IMG/VR virus record: IMGVR_UViG_3300009074_001057
Coordinates: 1 to 26,019 of that record
Strand: one strand, 5' to 3'
DNA: 26,019 bases
Source of the DNA: a virus
The position numbers were made by a program, and so were the translations under genes. A model generated the notes under the pieces. The model saw only the letters and a list, made by a program, of their open reading frames with translations. It made no database searches and was not told where the DNA came from. Below are positions 19,111 through 26,019 of the stretch, piece by piece (positions within the stretch are counted from its first letter, which is position 1; the number at the start of each line of letters is the position of its first letter).

Positions 19111-19248
19111 ATGTTTATAGACATTGAAGTATTAGCAGATCAATGGGAATTAGAACAAGAACTAATAACCCAACTCCAAGAAGAATTATTAGAAAACCCA
19201 GGAATTTTCCTTACTGAAGAAGGGGAAGAAGATGATTTACCATTCTGA
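19111..19248 (+). CDS. 45-aa acidic protein ending in an SSB-like DDLPF tip
   Basis: A short ORF starting at ATG 19111 after an AAAATAAAATT leader, ending with TGA at 19246-19248, two bases before the SET-domain ATG. It is a helical acidic peptide (DQWELEQELITQLQEELLENP) followed by a GEEDDLPF end. The final five residues are identical to those of the gp32 at 5644 and match the C-terminal tip of bacterial SSB that binds many genome-maintenance enzymes. It therefore could compete for or recruit SSB partners. The gene is too short for composition-based prediction, so the spacing and leader are the main support that it is real. Confidence 0.6.
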   Translation: MFIDIEVLADQWELEQELITQLQEELLENPGIFLTEEGEEDDLPF

Positions 19249-19249
19249 T

Positions 19250-19645
19250 ATGAAAGTTCCAAATAATTTATATGTAAAGTGGACTGATAAAAAAGGCTAT
19301 GGAGTCTTCACAGACACACCTATTAAAAAGGGAGAACTTATTGAAAGATGCTATTGTATAAAAACTGGTAGTCCAAAAGACCATGTTAATGGTACTTTAA
19401 TGGATTATGTATTTAATTATCCTAGAGGTACTAGTATGGATAATGGAGCAGAACATGTATTACCTTTAGGTTTTGGTTGTATATACAACCATAGTAATGA
19501 TAATAGTAATGCAATGTGGGATAATACTAAAGATATACCTTACCATTTTGATTTTATTGCTTTAAAAAATATTGAAGTTGGGGAAGAAATTTGCACTTAT
19601 TATGGAGATGAATATTGGCCAACTAAAGACATATCACCAATATAA
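19250..19645 (+). CDS. SET-domain protein, possible protein lysine methyltransferase
   Basis: 131-aa protein starting at ATG 19250 (a longer in-frame start at 19232 would overlap the previous stop). It contains all the usual SET landmarks: KGYGVF (15-20), the start of the SAM pocket; CIYNHSNDNSN (77-87), corresponding to the NHS motif; a FDFIALKNIEVGEEICTYYG run (100-119), the conserved GEE-[IL]-xx-YG box. The minimal size equals an isolated SET domain without pre- or post-SET zinc clusters. SET enzymes methylate lysines using SAM. What it methylates in a bacterial cell (ribosomal proteins, host nucleoid proteins, phage proteins) is unknown. Confidence 0.82.
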   Translation: MKVPNNLYVKWTDKKGYGVFTDTPIKKGELIERCYCIKTGSPKDHVNGTLMDYVFNYPRGTSMDNGAEHVLPLGFGCIYNHSNDNSNAMWDNTKDIPYHFDFIALKNIEVGEEICTYYGDEYWPTKDISPI

Positions 19646-20773: not shown

Positions 20774-20953
20774 ATGATAGAATTTTTTAAACATGCTTTA
20801 GGATTATGTGGTGAACATTGGCACCCAAACATTTTTACAATTATCTTAGGTGGGCTTGGATTATCCGCTCCATTTTCGTATATTAAATACAAATTAAACA
20901 GTTATGGCAATAAAAATAAGTCACGAAACACCCCTATGTCTATTAAACGATAG
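20774..20953 (+). CDS. Small membrane ORF, 59 aa, overlapping dpdA
   Basis: ORF from ATG 20774, one base after the ThyX stop, to TAG at 20951-20953. It encodes MIEFFKHALGLCGEHWHPN followed by a hydrophobic helix (IFTIILGGLGLSAPFSYI) and a basic tail, a layout I recall from small 'HALGLCGE...H' phage ORFs of unknown function. It overlaps the dpdA start by 50 nt and contains the promoter element for dpdA. It may be membrane-bound. The N-terminal similarity is a memory-based match and its function is unknown. Confidence 0.6.
   Translation: MIEFFKHALGLCGEHWHPNIFTIILGGLGLSAPFSYIKYKLNSYGNKNKSRNTPMSIKR
20856..20884 (+). promoter_or_regulatory. Promoter element: TTGG-N15-TTCGTATATT
   Basis: Exact copy with TTGG at 20856-20859 and TTCGTATATT at 20875-20884, inside the 3' part of the 59-aa ORF and 19 nt before the dpdA ATG. 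It probably starts a transcript for the deazaguanine module. The leader ends AAACAGTTATG, close to the AAAGTTATG seen at other promoter-led genes. Confidence 0.72.
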
Positions 20954-21695
20954 TAGACGATTTAATGATTATGACTATTGTCTTCCCCATTTATTGGATG
21001 AAGAACCAGGTTATTTAGAATATTTTTTAGAATCTAAAAGACAAGGTCGTTATATTATAATGGATAATTCTCTTCATGAATTAGGCGAAGCCTATAACCA
21101 TGAACGTCTTGTATATTGGGTTAATGAATTAGAACCTAATGAATTTATAGTACCAGATGTTTGGGAAAATTGTGTAGAATCTATTCAAAATGCTGAAATA
21201 TGGAATATTTATGATTTTCCTGAAGGAGTTGAGAAAGTTGCTGTAGTTCAAGCAAAAACAATTCATGAAGCTTCACAATGTGTTAAAGCTTATAAAAATT
21301 TAGGTTACGGTAAAATTTGTTTTTCATATGGGGCTTCTTATTATAATGATGTTTGTCCTCACCCAAATAAGGATTTAGGTAAAGCTTTAGGAAGACTTTA
21401 TGTAATTTCAGCTTTAATGAAAATGGGAGATATTAAACAAGATGATAGAATTCATTTATTAGGATGTGCTGTACCCCAAGAGTTTGGGTGGTATGAAGGT
21501 ATTAATTGCATAGAATCAATTGATACATCAAACCCAGTTATGGCGACATTAGAAGATGTTCAATATAGAAATTATGGTTTATATCAAAAACCAAAAGCAA
21601 ATATGAATGATTATTTTTATATGTTAAATGATCAAGTTGATTATGATCTTTTAACTTACAATTTAGATGTGTTTAAAATGATAAATAATTTATAA
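20904..21695 (+). CDS. dpdA: DpdA/TGT-like 7-deazaguanine transglycosylase
   Basis: The 263-residue protein matches the phage TGT-like family: IIMDNSLHELGE (51-62) in the place of the TGT D-S-G-G-F motif (D54 as candidate base), ELEPNEFIVPDVWEN (75-89), VAVVQAKTIHEASQCV, HLLGCAVPQE (184-193), and SIDTSNPVMAT (205-215), where D207 aligns with the TGT nucleophile Asp. It lacks the Cys-rich zinc site of tRNA-type TGT and is shorter, as in DNA-acting members. DpdA-type enzymes swap guanine for preQ0 or a derivative in DNA. QueC, QueD and QueE encoded downstream support this. A tRNA substrate cannot be excluded from sequence alone. Confidence 0.75.
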   Translation: MAIKISHETPLCLLNDSRRFNDYDYCLPHLLDEEPGYLEYFLESKRQGRYIIMDNSLHELGEAYNHERLVYWVNELEPNEFIVPDVWENCVESIQNAEIWNIYDFPEGVEKVAVVQAKTIHEASQCVKAYKNLGYGKICFSYGASYYNDVCPHPNKDLGKALGRLYVISALMKMGDIKQDDRIHLLGCAVPQEFGWYEGINCIESIDTSNPVMATLEDVQYRNYGLYQKPKANMNDYFYMLNDQVDYDLLTYNLDVFKMINNL

Positions 21696-21696
21696 A

Positions 21697-21891
21697 ATGG
21701 CAAAACTAACAAGAAATGTAAATTACGCAAATTACAGATGGGAAGAATATGTGTTAACCGAAGAAGAATTAACACAGTGGAAAACGGGTGATGAAGATAT
21801 CCAACAAGAGATTATAGATAATGCAGATTGGGATCTAGTAAGAGATAAACCAATTGATGATTACAGTGAACCAGAATTTATAGAAGAATAA
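21697..21891 (+). CDS. Small acidic protein, 64 aa
   Basis: Unrecognised. Begins one base after the dpdA stop and is strongly acidic towards the C-terminus (DNADWDLVRDKPIDDYSEPEFIEE) after a short basic N-terminus. No motif or membrane segment. Tight packing suggests it is cotranscribed with dpdA and queC. Acidic small phage proteins often act as DNA mimics or inhibitors, but there is no direct evidence here. Confidence 0.5.
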   Translation: MAKLTRNVNYANYRWEEYVLTEEELTQWKTGDEDIQQEIIDNADWDLVRDKPIDDYSEPEFIEE

Positions 21892-21895
21892 AGAT

Positions 21896-22120
21896 ATGTT
21901 AAAAAAACAATCAATAAGGTCTAATCAGACCATTTTTATCAATAATAATGATAAATCAGCAAGTAAAGATGAAATTCTAGCACTTAGTGAATTTTGGACT
22001 GATAGAGAAGAAGGATTATTTCGAAAACTTCTTAAACAAGGTGGAAGTACAAAAATACAAGGTACTCATTTTAAAGTGGTTGTTGAAGAAAAACAACTTA
22101 AATTACGTGACATGCAATAG
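21896..22120 (+). CDS. Hypothetical protein, 74 aa
   Basis: Unrecognised. Begins 4 nt after the previous stop; its TAG stop at 22118-22120 forms the start of the pseudoknot upstream of queC. Sequence is Lys/Glu-rich with a helical middle (KDEILALSEFWTDREEGLFRKLLKQGG) and a beta-hairpin-like end (TKIQGTHFKVVVEEKQLKL). It is probably cotranscribed with dpdA. No function is evident. Confidence 0.5.
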   Translation: MLKKQSIRSNQTIFINNNDKSASKDEILALSEFWTDREEGLFRKLLKQGGSTKIQGTHFKVVVEEKQLKLRDMQ

Positions 22121-22152
22121 CGTTTGCCTATACGCTTAAAATACCTGGCAAA
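22119..22152 (+). ncRNA. H-type pseudoknot leader upstream of queC, riboswitch candidate
   Basis: AGCGT (22119-22123) pairs with ACGCT (22132-22136); the loop TTGCC (22124-22128) pairs with GGCAA (22147-22151), leaving an A-rich connector TAAAATACCT (22137-22146). This is a compact H-type pseudoknot that ends 16 nt before the queC ATG. The topology (5-bp stem, loop pairing to an A-rich tail) resembles preQ1-I riboswitches, and queC makes preQ0, but the consensus residues of that class are not matched. It may sense a deazaguanine or simply regulate translation. Confidence 0.5.
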
Positions 22153-22167
22153 TATAAATAAATAAAA

Positions 22168-23040
22168 ATGACACAATTGGAATTAAATTTTAAGGACTCA
22201 CGACGTCCGAAACACGCAGTAGTATCACTTTCAGGTGGTATGGATTCAAGTACATTATTGCTTAAATGTCTTGATAAATTTGAAACAGTAACAGCTTTAT
22301 CCTTTGACTATGGTCAAAAACATAAGGTTGAACTAAAAAGAGCAAGAGCATTAGTTGATTATTTAAATAGACAATGTACTGACAATAATTGTTATGGTGG
22401 TTGTAGAATTAAATATCAGGTTATTAAATTAGATGGATTAGTTGATTTACTAGATTCAGCATTAGTTGAAGGTGGTGAAGAAGTACCAGAAGGGCATTAC
22501 GCAGCTGAAAATATGAAAGCTACTGTAGTACCTAATAGAAATAAAATATTTGCTTCTATAACTCAGGCAGTTGCTTTATCAGTAGCAAATAGAACAGAAG
22601 AAGGAACATCAATTGCTTTAGGAATTCATGCCGGGGATCATGATATTTACCCTGATTGTAGACAAGAATTTAGAGATGCTGATGATCATGCTTTTAGAGA
22701 AGGTAATTGGGATGCTGAAAGAGTAGGTTATTATACTCCTTATCTTAAAGGTGATAAATTTACTATTCTTCAAGATGGAGAAGTATTATGTGAAAAATTA
22801 GGTATTGATTTTGATGAAGTTTATGCTAGAACAAACACTTCATATAAACCAACACCTGAAGGGTGGTCTGATTACAAATCAGCATCATCTGTAGAACGTA
22901 TTGAAGCGTTCATTAAATTAGGAAGACCTGATCCAGTACAATATGCCGATGAAACAGGTCCTGTTGATTATGAAACGGCAAGAATATATGTTGAACAAGT
23001 TCTTTCAGAATACGAAAAAGAACAATTAAAAATTAAATAA
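22168..23040 (+). CDS. queC: QueC-like 7-cyano-7-deazaguanine (preQ0) synthase
   Basis: The 290-residue protein carries the ATP-pyrophosphatase loop SGGMDS (22-27), LSFDYGQKHKVEL (44-56), VPNRNKIFASI (121-131) and LGIHAGDHDIYPDCRQEF (151-168), which match QueC. QueC converts carboxy-deazaguanine to preQ0 with ATP and ammonia. The canonical C-terminal zinc cysteines are missing: the place where C-Y and CGxCxxC sit reads TSYKPTPEGWSDYKSAS (224-240). Instead a CX4CX3C cluster lies at C70, C75 and C79. It is thus a variant, possibly with altered metal binding or chemistry. A pseudoknot leader precedes it. Confidence 0.85.
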   Translation: MTQLELNFKDSRRPKHAVVSLSGGMDSSTLLLKCLDKFETVTALSFDYGQKHKVELKRARALVDYLNRQCTDNNCYGGCRIKYQVIKLDGLVDLLDSALVEGGEEVPEGHYAAENMKATVVPNRNKIFASITQAVALSVANRTEEGTSIALGIHAGDHDIYPDCRQEFRDADDHAFREGNWDAERVGYYTPYLKGDKFTILQDGEVLCEKLGIDFDEVYARTNTSYKPTPEGWSDYKSASSVERIEAFIKLGRPDPVQYADETGPVDYETARIYVEQVLSEYEKEQLKIK

Positions 23041-23041
23041 A

Positions 23042-23263
23042 ATGGAAAATAAAGAATTAAATAAAGAAGTAGATAAAATAGTTAACCAATTAGCAGGTGC
23101 TAATATAAAAGAATTACCTGATGCTTACATGCACCAAAAAATCAGTTTTATTAAATCTGGTGTAAGAATTTTAGGTTATTGTTTTATCCCATTTAGCTTG
23201 GGTTGGGCAACTGCTTTTCTTATATTGAGTGAAGTAATAGGTATAATCGAAGAATTAGTATAA
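23042..23263 (+). CDS. Small membrane-associated protein, 73 aa
   Basis: Unrecognised. It starts one base after the queC stop with a charged helical N-terminus (KELNKEVDKIVNQLAGANIKEL), then a hydrophobic region (RILGYCFIPFSLGWATAFLILSEVIGIIEEL, about 43-73) that could form a membrane hairpin. The promoter element for the thioredoxin/queDE group lies in its 3' end. Its link to the deazaguanine genes is positional only. Confidence 0.55.
   Translation: MENKELNKEVDKIVNQLAGANIKELPDAYMHQKISFIKSGVRILGYCFIPFSLGWATAFLILSEVIGIIEELV
23198..23226 (+). promoter_or_regulatory. Intragenic promoter element: TTGG-N15-TTCTTATATT
   Basis: Exact copy with TTGG at 23198-23201 and TTCTTATATT at 23217-23226, within the small membrane gene and 53 nt before the thioredoxin ATG. 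It could drive trx, queD and queE. The identical spacing to the other copies argues against chance. Confidence 0.66.
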
Positions 23264-23279
23264 ATTAAATAAATAAAAA

Positions 23280-23537
23280 ATGAATAGAGGAATTTTGTAT
23301 TTCAGCGCACCATGGTGCGGACCTTGTAAAGTAATGTCTCCTTTGATGGAACAAATGGAAAAACAAGGAAAAATTAAGATGAAAAAAATTAATGTTGATT
23401 ATGATGCTTCAATGCCTCAAAAATATAACATTAAAAGTGTACCTACTATGGTCTTAACAGATTTAGATGGTAATGAAATTAAAAGAACAACAGGAAATAT
23501 GTCTGAGGTTCAAATAATGGAGTTTTACAATGGGTAA
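23280..23537 (+). CDS. trx: Thioredoxin
   Basis: An 85-residue thioredoxin fold with the standard WCGPC active site (12-16), a KKINVDYD strand, and SVPTMVLTD with the cis-Pro. It is shorter than E. coli thioredoxin (109 aa) because it lacks the N-terminal strand/helix, as in many phage or glutaredoxin-like forms. It is the likely electron donor to the NrdA/NrdB pair whose R1 keeps the C-terminal cysteine pair. It overlaps queD by 8 nt (ATGGGTAA). Confidence 0.92.
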   Translation: MNRGILYFSAPWCGPCKVMSPLMEQMEKQGKIKMKKINVDYDASMPQKYNIKSVPTMVLTDLDGNEIKRTTGNMSEVQIMEFYNG

Positions 23538-23994
23538 ATTTTCATCAAGTAAAGTATTTGACGGGTTTAGTACAGTGTTTCGTCAATGGAAAGCTGAAGA
23601 TACACATTGTAGATTTTTACATGGATATGGTATTAGTTTCAAAGTATATTTTGAAGGTGATTTAGATGATAGAAACTGGGTTTGGGATTTTGGTGGTATG
23701 AAGCGTGCTAAAACCCAAATTGAGGGTAAATCACCTAAGGAATGGATGGATTATATGTTTGACCATACTGTTATCATTGCAGAAGATGACCCAGGTATGA
23801 AAGGTTGGGAAACTATGAATCAACTAGGAGTAATTCAATTAAGAGTAATTGAAGCTACAGGTGCAGAAAAATTTGCAGAATATATTTATAATAAGCTCAA
23901 TGATTTTGTATTTGAAGAAACAGATAATAGAGTTAGAGTAACAAAAGTTAAATTTATGGAGCATGGAAAAAATGCTGCATATTATAGTGAATAA
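23530..23994 (+). CDS. queD: QueD/6-pyruvoyl-tetrahydropterin synthase-like protein, variant zinc site
   Basis: The 154-residue protein has the T-fold pattern of QueD: catalytic Cys27 in THCRFLHGY, DFGGMK (53-58), FDH (77-79) and a late ExG-type E144 in MEHGKN. QueD makes 6-carboxytetrahydropterin from dihydroneopterin triphosphate, the step before QueE. Of the three zinc His, only H31 is in place; the HGH second His is Y33 and the early AxH His is F17. His26 might substitute. Similar HGY variants occur, from memory, in marine phages. The call is QueD-like by context with queC and queE, slightly less certain as to activity. Confidence 0.8.
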   Translation: MGKFSSSKVFDGFSTVFRQWKAEDTHCRFLHGYGISFKVYFEGDLDDRNWVWDFGGMKRAKTQIEGKSPKEWMDYMFDHTVIIAEDDPGMKGWETMNQLGVIQLRVIEATGAEKFAEYIYNKLNDFVFEETDNRVRVTKVKFMEHGKNAAYYSE

Positions 23995-24015
23995 AAAACC
24001 ACTTAAAAAAATTGT

Positions 24016-24792
24016 ATGTTAAAAAGAATAGAAGATTATAATAAAAATCTACCTGTTGTAGAAATTTATACAGCAGTTCAGTCAGAAGGATCAAGAGCAG
24101 GTTACCCAACAGTAGTTATTAGAACAACAGGTTGTACTCATCGATGTTATTTTGGAGAAGGTGGTTGGTGTGACTCTTGGTATACTAGTATTCATCCTGA
24201 AAAAGGACATTTTAATTTCAAAGACATTATTGAAATGTATGAGAAAAATCCTCATATAAAAGAAATGATGTTAACTGGAGGCTCACCTACTATGCATCCT
24301 GCTTTGGTAAATGAATTAACACATTTTGCACATGAAAATGATATTTTTATTACTATCGAAACTGAGGGATCTCATTTCCTCCCCACAGACTATCCTATTA
24401 ATTTATTATCTATTAGCCCTAAGTTTAGTAATTCTGTACCAGTTGTAGGTGTTTTAACTCCCCAAGGTAAAGAAACGGATGAAAAAATGATTAAAACTCA
24501 TAATAGGCTTAGACTTAATTATGATGCAATGAAACAATCAATTGAATATCATTCTGATTATCATATCAAACCAGTATGGGACGGTAAGGATGAAGGAGCA
24601 TTAGCTGAGATTATGGAATGTATTAAAACATTAGAAGTACCTCAACATAAAGTATGGTTTATGCCTGCTGGAGATTCAAGAGAAGCATTATTTAAGTCAT
24701 ACCCAGTATTATTTGATTGGGTTAGGGACAATGGTTATAGAATGACATGGAGACCTCACATTATTGCCTTTGAAGACAAAAGAGAAGTATAA
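24016..24792 (+). CDS. queE: QueE-like radical SAM 7-carboxy-7-deazaguanine synthase
   Basis: The 258-residue protein begins with EIYTAVQSEGSRAGYPTVVIRTTGC, the QueE N-terminal signature, then the 4Fe-4S cysteines C40, C44 and C52. The spacing CX3CX7C differs from the usual radical-SAM CX3CX2C. A GGSP motif (LTGGSPTMHPAL) that positions SAM follows, then TIETEGS and SISPKFS. QueE turns carboxytetrahydropterin into 7-carboxy-7-deazaguanine, feeding QueC. It follows queD by 21 nt and overlaps the next small gene by one base (TAATG). Confidence 0.88.
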   Translation: MLKRIEDYNKNLPVVEIYTAVQSEGSRAGYPTVVIRTTGCTHRCYFGEGGWCDSWYTSIHPEKGHFNFKDIIEMYEKNPHIKEMMLTGGSPTMHPALVNELTHFAHENDIFITIETEGSHFLPTDYPINLLSISPKFSNSVPVVGVLTPQGKETDEKMIKTHNRLRLNYDAMKQSIEYHSDYHIKPVWDGKDEGALAEIMECIKTLEVPQHKVWFMPAGDSREALFKSYPVLFDWVRDNGYRMTWRPHIIAFEDKREV

Positions 24793-24926
24793 TGTCTAAA
24801 GAAGAAGCACTTGAAATACTGGAAGAAATATCAGAAAATGTTAGTGTTTGTTGTGCTATAACAATGGAACCAGATGAAGTTTTACTATTAATAGATAAAT
24901 TAAAGAAATACTTAGAAAATGTATAA
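24792..24926 (+). CDS. Small hypothetical protein, 44 aa
   Basis: A short ORF whose ATG overlaps the queE stop (TAATG) and whose end overlaps the next gene by 8 nt (ATGTATAA). It encodes an acidic helical protein (KEEALEILEEISENVS, then EPDEVLLLIDKLKKYLEN) with a Cys-Cys pair in the middle. Both junctions show the overlapping-codon packing of real phage genes, which is the main evidence that it is translated. Function unknown. Confidence 0.6.
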   Translation: MSKEEALEILEEISENVSVCCAITMEPDEVLLLIDKLKKYLENV

Positions 24927-25257
24927 ATACAATGCAAAATTAGATAGAGTTGTTGATGGAGATACTGTTGATGCCCTTGTAGATTTAGGATTTAATACTT
25001 GGAAAAAAGTAAGAATTAGAATGGTAGGGATGAATGCCCCAGAGTCAAGAACTAGAGATTTAGAAGAAAAAGCAAGAGGAATTGCTGCTAAAATTAGATT
25101 AGAAGAATTACTAGAAAAAGGATCATTTATTTTAGAATCTCAAGGTGTAGGTAAATACGGTAGATGTTTAGGAATTATATTTGTTAATGAAGTAAATGTA
25201 AATAAACAATTAATAACTGAAGGACATGCTGTAGAGTATAATGGAGGGAAAAGATAA
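24919..25257 (+). CDS. Staphylococcal nuclease-like protein (thermonuclease family)
   Basis: 112-aa protein with the SNase (OB-fold) plan: VVDGDTVDALVDLG (11-24), VRIRMVGMNAPES (31-43) and GKYGRCLGIIF (78-88). R34, E42 and R82 align with catalytic Arg35, Glu43 and Arg87 of staphylococcal nuclease, and D13 with Asp21. The calcium ligand Asp40 appears to be Asn39, which may reduce activity. It has no signal peptide, so it would act inside the cell, for example in host DNA breakdown or nucleotide recycling. The call is firm for family, not for activity. Confidence 0.8.
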   Translation: MYKYNAKLDRVVDGDTVDALVDLGFNTWKKVRIRMVGMNAPESRTRDLEEKARGIAAKIRLEELLEKGSFILESQGVGKYGRCLGIIFVNEVNVNKQLITEGHAVEYNGGKR

Positions 25258-25258
25258 A

Positions 25259-25645
25259 ATGCATTATATAACCCAACACCCAATTAAAAAATCAGATTTA
25301 GGATTCCATGGAAATTTATTTGGAGGAAAATTACTAGCTTGGTTAGATGCAGCAGCTGCTTCTTATGCTTCTGAGTTTTGTGATACCCCACGAATGGTAA
25401 CTAAGAGTATAGATAAATGCATTTTTAATAAACCTGCTAAAGAAGGTCAGTTATTAAAAATATATGGTGATGTAAAAAAAATTGGAACTACTTCTTTAAC
25501 ATTATATATGGAAGCACGTTCACATAATGTTTATAATGGAAAGCAAAATGTTATTTTAGCAACAAATATTACATTTGTTAGAATAGATGAAATGGGAGAT
25601 GCTATCCCAATATCAGATAGAGTTAAATCAAAATTAAAAATATGA
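25259..25645 (+). CDS. Hotdog-fold acyl-CoA thioesterase
   Basis: 128-aa protein. The ATG at 25259 gives MHYITQHPIKKSDLGFHGNLFGGKLLAWLDAAA; a longer in-frame start at 25241 would overlap the nuclease gene. HGNLFGGKLLAWLDAAAASYA is the YciA/BFIT-type acyl-CoA thioesterase signature with the Asp (in WLD) as catalytic residue. The remaining strands (LLKIYGDVKKIGTTSLTLYMEA, NVILATNITFVRID) complete a hotdog fold. It would hydrolyse acyl-CoA thioesters in the cytosol. It is an unusual gene for a phage and probably an auxiliary metabolic gene. It overlaps the next gene by 4 nt. Confidence 0.82.
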   Translation: MHYITQHPIKKSDLGFHGNLFGGKLLAWLDAAAASYASEFCDTPRMVTKSIDKCIFNKPAKEGQLLKIYGDVKKIGTTSLTLYMEARSHNVYNGKQNVILATNITFVRIDEMGDAIPISDRVKSKLKI

Positions 25646-26019
25646 ATCAATTAATTAGTGCTAAAGATATAGATATCCAAACAAAAATAGTTGCAAAACA
25701 AATATCAGATGAACATAAAGGTGATAAAACTCCTGTAGTAATGGTTGGGTTACTTAATGGTTGTTTTGCGTTTTATGCTGATTTAGTACGGGCTATGCCA
25801 ATTGATGTGGAATGTGATTTTATGCGCGTTAAATCGTATATAAATCGTAAACAAGGCGATATAGTTATTGCTAAAGACCTTGAGACTCCTATTAAAGGTA
25901 AGCATGTTTATATTGTAGATGACATTTATGACACTGGAAATACTATGAAAGTTGTTATTGATTATTTAAATGTTAAAAAACCAGCTTCTATTTCAATTGT
26001 AAGTTTAGTTACTAGAAAA
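25642..26019 (+). CDS. hpt: Hypoxanthine/guanine phosphoribosyltransferase (truncated by window end)
   Basis: The first 126 residues are visible and the frame runs off the right edge; full-length enzymes are about 175 aa. Type I PRTase features are VVMVGLLNGCFAFYADLVRAM near the N-terminus, FMRVKSYINR, the VYIVDDIYDTGNTM PRPP loop (about 92-105), and a VVIDYL helix. It transfers phosphoribose from PRPP to a purine base in salvage. The pattern matches Hpt more closely than other PRTases. The ATG overlaps the thioesterase stop (ATGA). A role in purine salvage for deazaguanine precursors or dNTPs is inferred. Confidence 0.82.
   Translation, partial: MNQLISAKDIDIQTKIVAKQISDEHKGDKTPVVMVGLLNGCFAFYADLVRAMPIDVECDFMRVKSYINRKQGDIVIAKDLETPIKGKHVYIVDDIYDTGNTMKVVIDYLNVKKPASISIVSLVTRK

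Follow-up and report, generated by a model that had tools for sequence, protein, structure and literature searches.

A predicted DpdA3-type 7-deazaguanine DNA-modification module with a zinc-less QueC in a T4-like phage

The Campylobacter phages CP220 and CPt10 are reported to have 100% of their deoxyguanosine (dG) replaced by deoxy-7-amido-7-deazaguanosine (dADG; PMC8306585), and dPreQ0 is found in the DNA of CAjan and Rosebush (PMC6884629). In the survey of Hutinet 2019 (PMC6884629) the Campylobacter phages were counted as being without DpdA, and the proposal of a modified dGTP was cited. Here we analyse the 26,019 nucleotides of the IMG/VR record IMGVR_UViG_3300009074_001057 (the whole stretch, positions 1 to 26,019, is referred to as the window), in which positions 20904–24792 hold a transglycosylase-like gene (dpdA) together with queC, queD and queE. 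We read this locus, with a probability of about 0.88, as a DpdA3-type 7-deazaguanine DNA-modification module of a T4-like phage, where DpdA3 is reportedly the subfamily name given to the CP220-type enzyme by Cui et al. 2023. The first-pass annotation had likewise seen a DpdA-type enzyme as part of a 7-deazaguanine DNA-modification module, a view now sustained by the fold of the enzyme, the alignment of its catalytic motifs, its homology to proteins of CP220 and of Flavobacterium phage vB_FspM_immuto (hereafter immuto), the presence of folE and the conserved synteny.

The source, with a GC content of 31%, is a T4-like phage, probably of marine Flavobacteria, and contigs of the same phage (L003–L005, 163.6–164.1 kb) differ from the window by 4 mismatches over 13,116 positions. 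All four genes are intact open reading frames (ORFs) of the same direction and lie where they had first been placed; the Que genes, however, are not consecutive as had been described, since a 73-aa ORF and a thioredoxin gene (trx) separate queC from queD. Of 61 independent viral contigs, most retain the order dpdA-queC-trx-queD-queE, with the consensus dpdA-queC-(73-aa ORF)-trx-queD-queE-(SNase)-phosphoribosyltransferase-folE-mazG, where SNase denotes a staphylococcal-nuclease-like gene. For most pairs compared, dN/dS is ~0.1–0.2, and thus the QueC and QueD variants described below are maintained. Given this synteny and dN < dS, the arrangement of the module lies far above what chance would produce.

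A transglycosylase fold in the DpdA3-like protein

The proteins of the window were searched against Pfam, PHROGs and NCBIfam. Neither Pfam nor NCBIfam recognises the product of dpdA (263 aa), and its PHROG matches are limited to 19058 and 20335, both labelled 'unknown function', so that its first assignment had relied on motifs. An AlphaFold2 model based on 40 relatives from viruses (pLDDT 92.9, pTM 0.90) retrieves with Foldseek only tRNA-guanine transglycosylases (TGTs) among the 50 PDB matches listed (best E 1.2e-7, probability 1.00, TM ~0.6), and among viral models (BFVD) it retrieves a protein of Cellulophaga phage phiST (TM 0.83), protein R9TGF0 of Vibrio phage nt-1 and, in addition, phage proteins annotated as queuine transferases. 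The two PHROGs thereby gain a TGT-fold identity. A sequence-only search of the PDB yielded nothing significant, with the DpdA structure 7ui4 at E=0.64. In hhalign comparison with E. coli Tgt, the segments VVQA, HLLGCAVPQEF and SIDT align with IIQG, YLMGVGKPEDL and MFDC in the same order, although the profile comparisons with Tgt and DpdA1 reach a probability of just 1.9–2.5%; the order of the motifs and the fold therefore carry the argument for a TGT.

Across all DpdA3-like proteins, D54, N55, D85, H184, G187 and D207 are invariant and Q116 is nearly so, of which D54, D85, Q116 and D207 form the predicted catalytic set, corresponding to residues of TGT. The protein does not bear the full-length TGT sequence signature, and neither it nor its relatives contain a Cys/His zinc cluster, such that the C-terminal zinc site of TGT has no counterpart. 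DUF6610 (PF20314) is not matched by this protein and only weakly elsewhere (best 7e-6 among members, up to 0.001 for singly scanned phage proteins), and we place no weight on it.

The closest informative homologues are the proteins of CP220 and CPt10 (36–37% identity over 98% of the length), CP220 CPT_0056 being placed in phrog_19058 together with the window protein, and the DpdA of immuto (36–37% identity). In total, 31 phage records are matched, comprising Campylobacter, Cellulophaga, Flavobacterium and Bacillus phages, Chryseobacterium phage MA9V-3 and Weizmannia phage Youna2, and these are the same groups that carry Que genes. We infer from these sequence relationships that the gene set represents a DpdA3-type module, and its enzyme family is likely to include the DpdA that had been missing from Campylobacter phages. 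We note that the records of L112 (5896–6684) and of Bacillus phages BSTP5, BSTP8, BSTP10 and BSTP12 variously call the DpdA3-like gene NadR, integrase/recombinase or polynucleotide kinase; these labels apparently misannotate a single gene.

The fold alone would also suit a tRNA-acting TGT, with the cluster serving to raise queuosine in host tRNA during infection, as proposed for phages with Que genes but without DpdA (PMC6884629); indeed, the structures that the model matches in the PDB are tRNA TGTs of bacteria. We nevertheless regard this as very improbable: the zinc-binding C-terminal part of TGT is missing from the protein, QueF was not found in near-complete relatives, yet bacterial TGT uses preQ1, and the closest experimentally informative homologue resides in CP220, the DNA of which is fully modified.

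The preQ0 pathway and the likely base

The search for folE elsewhere in the genome, which had been proposed in the first-pass annotation, locates the gene just past the window, 6.1 kb downstream of dpdA in the contigs of the same phage (L003:14801-15496). With queC, queD and queE in the window and folE in these contigs, the phage encodes the complete pathway from GTP to preQ0 as well as the predicted exchanger. FolE would convert GTP to dihydroneopterin triphosphate, from which QueD would form 6-carboxytetrahydropterin, QueE 7-carboxy-7-deazaguanine (CDG) and QueC, via 7-amido-7-deazaguanine (ADG), preQ0. The TGT-fold enzyme would then exchange guanine in replicated DNA, possibly all of it as reported for CP220, for the deazaguanine. 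DNA modified in this way would resist host restriction and other guanine-reading nucleases, so that the probable purpose of the modified guanine is concealment from bacterial defences, a known strategy, while the displaced guanine and the consumed GTP would probably be recycled by the adjacent phosphoribosyltransferase.

The four zinc cysteines of QueC (C(x)8CxxCxxC) are replaced by S/D/S/S in all 55 marine sequences as well as in immuto, defining a zinc-less class A with the segment TNTSYKP..WSDYKSASSVER. The remainder of the active-site signature is preserved: the window QueC retains SGGMDS, YxQxHxxE, VPNRN, YPDC and the equivalent of Y189, and SGGxDS, YxQxHxxE, VPxRN and YPDC are intact at nearly all positions in the 55 marine sequences (C134 in 54). 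Y35, Q37, H39, E42, R99, Y131 and Y189 are kept in the marine and immuto proteins, and among them Y35, R99, Y131 and Y189 are essential for preQ0 synthesis by E. coli QueC (PMC13329287). Among ~235 QueC sequences there are three zinc-less motif classes, each of which forms a single clade in trees built with and without the zinc columns, and thus phages have lost the zinc site on three or more occasions. That phages discard the site repeatedly while the essential tyrosine stays suggests that the zinc is probably structural. Class C is a large phage clade (L275–L309; TDYNG..NPA..RxKGY) without zinc cysteines, found alongside canonical HGH QueD.

In QueD, the zinc histidines (H16, H31 and H33 in E. 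coli) read F/L/I, H and Y in 49 of 49 marine sequences, the window protein having H16 replaced by F and H33 by Y with only H31 kept; the catalytic C27, D70, H71 and E110 are retained in all 49. Loss of H16 and H33 extends to the QueD of immuto, phiST, phiSM, MA9V-3, Iggy, Moby and RHEph04. The QueC and QueD losses are not tied, because class C QueC accompanies HGH QueD. A zinc-sparing pathway, in which both losses would be joint, was rejected, as zinc-less class C QueC stands with HGH-type QueD in ~30 loci and FolE retains its Cys/His motif. In three loci (L011, L047 and L053) QueD is 38–40% identical within otherwise syntenic modules, with L or I at H16; queD thus seems to have been exchanged for a divergent allele, which suggests recombination within the module. 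QueE keeps all three cysteines of the radical-SAM cluster in 37 of 37 sequences, spaced CX3CX7C or with X8; the window protein has CX3CX7C, and GGSP in place of GGEP.

Deviant metal sites had been ascribed to all three Que enzymes, which holds for QueC (0 of 4 cysteines) and QueD (1 of 3 histidines), but not for QueE, where the change is an insertion only. The altered sites could in principle yield a base other than preQ0, namely dADG if QueC stops halfway, dCDG if QueC attaches CDG elsewhere, or a novel base. CP220 makes dADG, and two paralogues of QueC, QatC and Cap9, attach CDG to proteins (PMC13329287). Such an outcome appears unlikely, however, with the remaining QueC signature residues intact. 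CP220 reaches dADG with a QueC that bears the zinc site, and zinc-less QueC recurs across several phage lineages, on account of which zinc loss alone does not imply an unusual final base, contrary to what had initially been supposed. In addition, the class A protein is the sole QueC match in immuto, where it occurs alongside a QueF bearing the ESKS..Y and C..D motifs; since QueF needs preQ0, class A QueC probably yields preQ0. The CP220 QueC (L103:2967-3626) has FPDC rather than YPDC and S at Q37, and Y131F QueC is partially active in E. coli (PMC13329287); these changes may be the reason why CP220 halts at ADG.

No QueF, formyltransferase or GATase_2 family was found in the near-complete relatives G001–G003, and PF14489 (QueF) is not present in G001–G004, with the sub-cut-off matches in G005 and G009 falling inside FolE. 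Thus, no preQ1, formyl or GAT step is encoded, and the original suggestion of preQ0 or a precursor remains reasonable. On the sequence evidence preQ0 is the most likely replacement base, at somewhat better than even odds, followed by ADG as a distinctly weaker candidate; by analogy with CP220, the replacement is possibly complete.

Several considerations weigh against a DNA-modification module that ends in preQ0. The fold matches of the modelled enzyme in the PDB are tRNA enzymes, which we attribute to solved structures being mostly tRNA TGTs, and DNA as the substrate is argued by analogy from relatives. QueC and QueD are without canonical zinc ligands, such that we presume them to be active because they are conserved and because other phages share the variants. 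Finally, PF00310 was not found and QueC carries no GAT fusion, but the searches did not extend to amidotransferases of the ArcS type or to the methyl- and decarboxylases that other phages have.

Neighbouring genes and the level of the exchange

Table 1. Features of the module and its surroundings in the window. NCBIfam matches of the Que proteins are below the curated cut-offs.
Feature	Position	Strand	Evidence
DpdA3-type guanine transglycosylase (predicted), 263 aa, TGT fold	20904..21695	+	AlphaFold2, Foldseek, motif alignment, homology
64-aa ORF, no family match	21697..21891	+	28/61 related loci, position varies
74-aa ORF, no family match	21896..22120	+	31/61 related loci
QueC, 290 aa, zinc-less class A	22168..23040	+	PF06508 E=1.6e-36, motif tally, tree
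73-aa ORF, hydrophobic segment, no family match	23042..23263	+	42/61 related loci, between queC and trx
Thioredoxin (CGPC)	23280..23537	+	PF00085 E=1.2e-17; precedes queD in 51/61 loci
QueD (PTPS family), 154 aa	23530..23994	+	PF01242 E=7.9e-15, phrog_2389 1.1e-39, motif tally
QueE, radical-SAM 7-carboxy-7-deazaguanine synthase	24016..24792	+	phrog_2076 1.7e-53, TIGR03365 1.7e-15 (under the curated cut-off), motif tally
Hypoxanthine/guanine phosphoribosyltransferase, truncated by window end	25642..26019	+	TIGR01203 6.5e-34

In most loci the interval from queE to folE contains a phosphoribosyltransferase gene. The hypoxanthine/guanine phosphoribosyltransferase (HPRT) of the window is full-length in L003 (12739–13242; 167 aa, PF00156 5.5e-24). 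In a hand count of the loci that reach folE, 18 carry HPRT, 9 an unrelated short phosphoribosyltransferase (PRT2) that is also present in immuto, none both, and 6, which are divergent, neither. That two families fill one slot suggests that the phosphoribosyltransferase serves the module. A MazG-like PRA-PH gene directly follows folE in the marine phages and stands beside dpdA in immuto, but neither CP220 nor phiST gave a PRA-PH match. CP220, immuto, L216, L141/L142, BSTP12, MA9V-3, Youna2 and phiST (where it was spotted by eye, with the P-loop GKD) each have a kinase adjoining their DpdA3-type gene, and these kinases represent three PHROG kinase families, as compared with no Walker-A ORF of 120–260 aa within 1.5 kb of dpdA in 83 DpdA1-type loci, some of which are partial. 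Most genomes of the marine clade encode an AAA_28 kinase at some other site. Directly upstream of CP220 dpdA, CPT_0055 (L064:6862-7893) is a fusion of an HD domain and a P-loop kinase that may serve this pathway as a deoxynucleotide phosphohydrolase/kinase. The three small ORFs put forward at first as modification partners are patchy (Table 1) and make weaker candidates than the genes for the phosphoribosyltransferase, the MazG-like protein and the kinase.

These neighbours bear on where the base is exchanged. By analogy with hydroxymethyl-dCMP in T4, the exchange could take place in the nucleotide pool, with the MazG-like protein converting dGTP to dGMP, DpdA3 swapping the base on the deoxynucleotide, a dNMP-kinase-like enzyme re-phosphorylating the product for incorporation by the polymerase, and the phosphoribosyltransferase recycling the freed guanine. 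The bias of the kinase towards DpdA3-type loci and the position of the MazG-like gene are in line with this, as is the short enzyme without the TGT zinc subdomain; a pool route would also explain the 100% replacement of dG in CP220, and a modified-dGTP route was proposed earlier for Campylobacter phages (Hutinet 2019, PMC6884629). If true, DpdA3 would be the first TGT-fold enzyme to act on free nucleotides. We consider exchange in the pool improbable, however, as characterised DpdA and TGT enzymes all act on nucleic acid, the kinase of the marine clade is encoded away from dpdA, and CP220 and phiST yielded no PRA-PH match. Cui et al. 2023 are also said to have concluded that base insertion is post-replicative. 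An acidic pI was tried as a sign of a nucleotide substrate and is uninformative, E. coli Tgt also being acidic.

The kinase and MazG links are thus suggestive of a pool route, but they are compatible with GTP regeneration as well, for which the kinase and phosphoribosyltransferase are equally suited. Each exchange would free a guanine and cost a GTP, and a 164-kb genome at 31% GC holds, by our estimate, ~51,000 guanines per copy, so that recycling of guanine to GTP for FolE would be a sensible role. Taken together, the phosphoribosyltransferase, MazG-like and kinase genes suggest guanine recycling, with exchange at the nucleotide level less likely. The selectivity of this linkage for one DpdA type makes the route of total guanine replacement, on DNA or on nucleotides, testable.

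Other genes surround the module. A SET-domain protein is encoded near upstream (19232–19645; PF00856, E=1.2e-11), with a SET gene kept in ~10 related loci, and between queE and the phosphoribosyltransferase lie genes for a small staphylococcal-nuclease-like protein (24919–25257), found again in 21 of the 61 loci, and a YciA-like thioesterase (25241–25645). A PADLOC scan gave merely weak QueC and viperin-like matches.

Comparison with known systems

The window phage resembles CP220 and CPt10 (Firehammervirus) in being T4-like, in the family of its transglycosylase and in holding folE, queD, queE and queC in one genome. Its Que and dpdA genes are clustered, whereas those of CP220 are scattered, and its zinc-less QueC with YPDC differs from the CP220 enzyme, which has the zinc site and FPDC. 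In CP220 a kinase adjoins dpdA without a PRA-PH match, and the base is reported to be dADG, whereas that of the window phage is predicted.

Flavobacterium phage immuto shares the class A zinc-less QueC (69% identity), the altered QueD (67%) and QueE (84%), in addition to the DpdA homologue (36–37%), the short phosphoribosyltransferase, the MazG-like gene and FolE. It differs in that it also encodes QueF and a formyltransferase and has a kinase gene adjoining dpdA, and its end product should therefore be a preQ1 derivative, whereas relatives of the window phage are without QueF and formyltransferase. Cellulophaga phage phiST shares QueD (68%), QueE (73%), FolE and a distant DpdA3-like protein of the same fold (TM 0.83), but its dpdA product is just 20% identical and has the kinase directly upstream; no QueC was found there, so that its base is probably CDG-derived.

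The DpdA1 phages (CAjan, the Rosebush group and Iggy) likewise combine a preQ0 pathway with a TGT-fold DNA enzyme, although theirs is longer and falls in PHROGs 887 and 7068, QueC is canonical in CAjan and Godines, and no linkage to kinase or phosphoribosyltransferase genes is seen. The present locus would extend DpdA3-type 7-deazaguanine DNA, possibly with complete replacement, to marine phages that form a widespread group. The kind of system is known; what is new is this variant, with its conserved zinc-less QueC and altered QueD, and its linkage to nucleotide salvage in this phage group.

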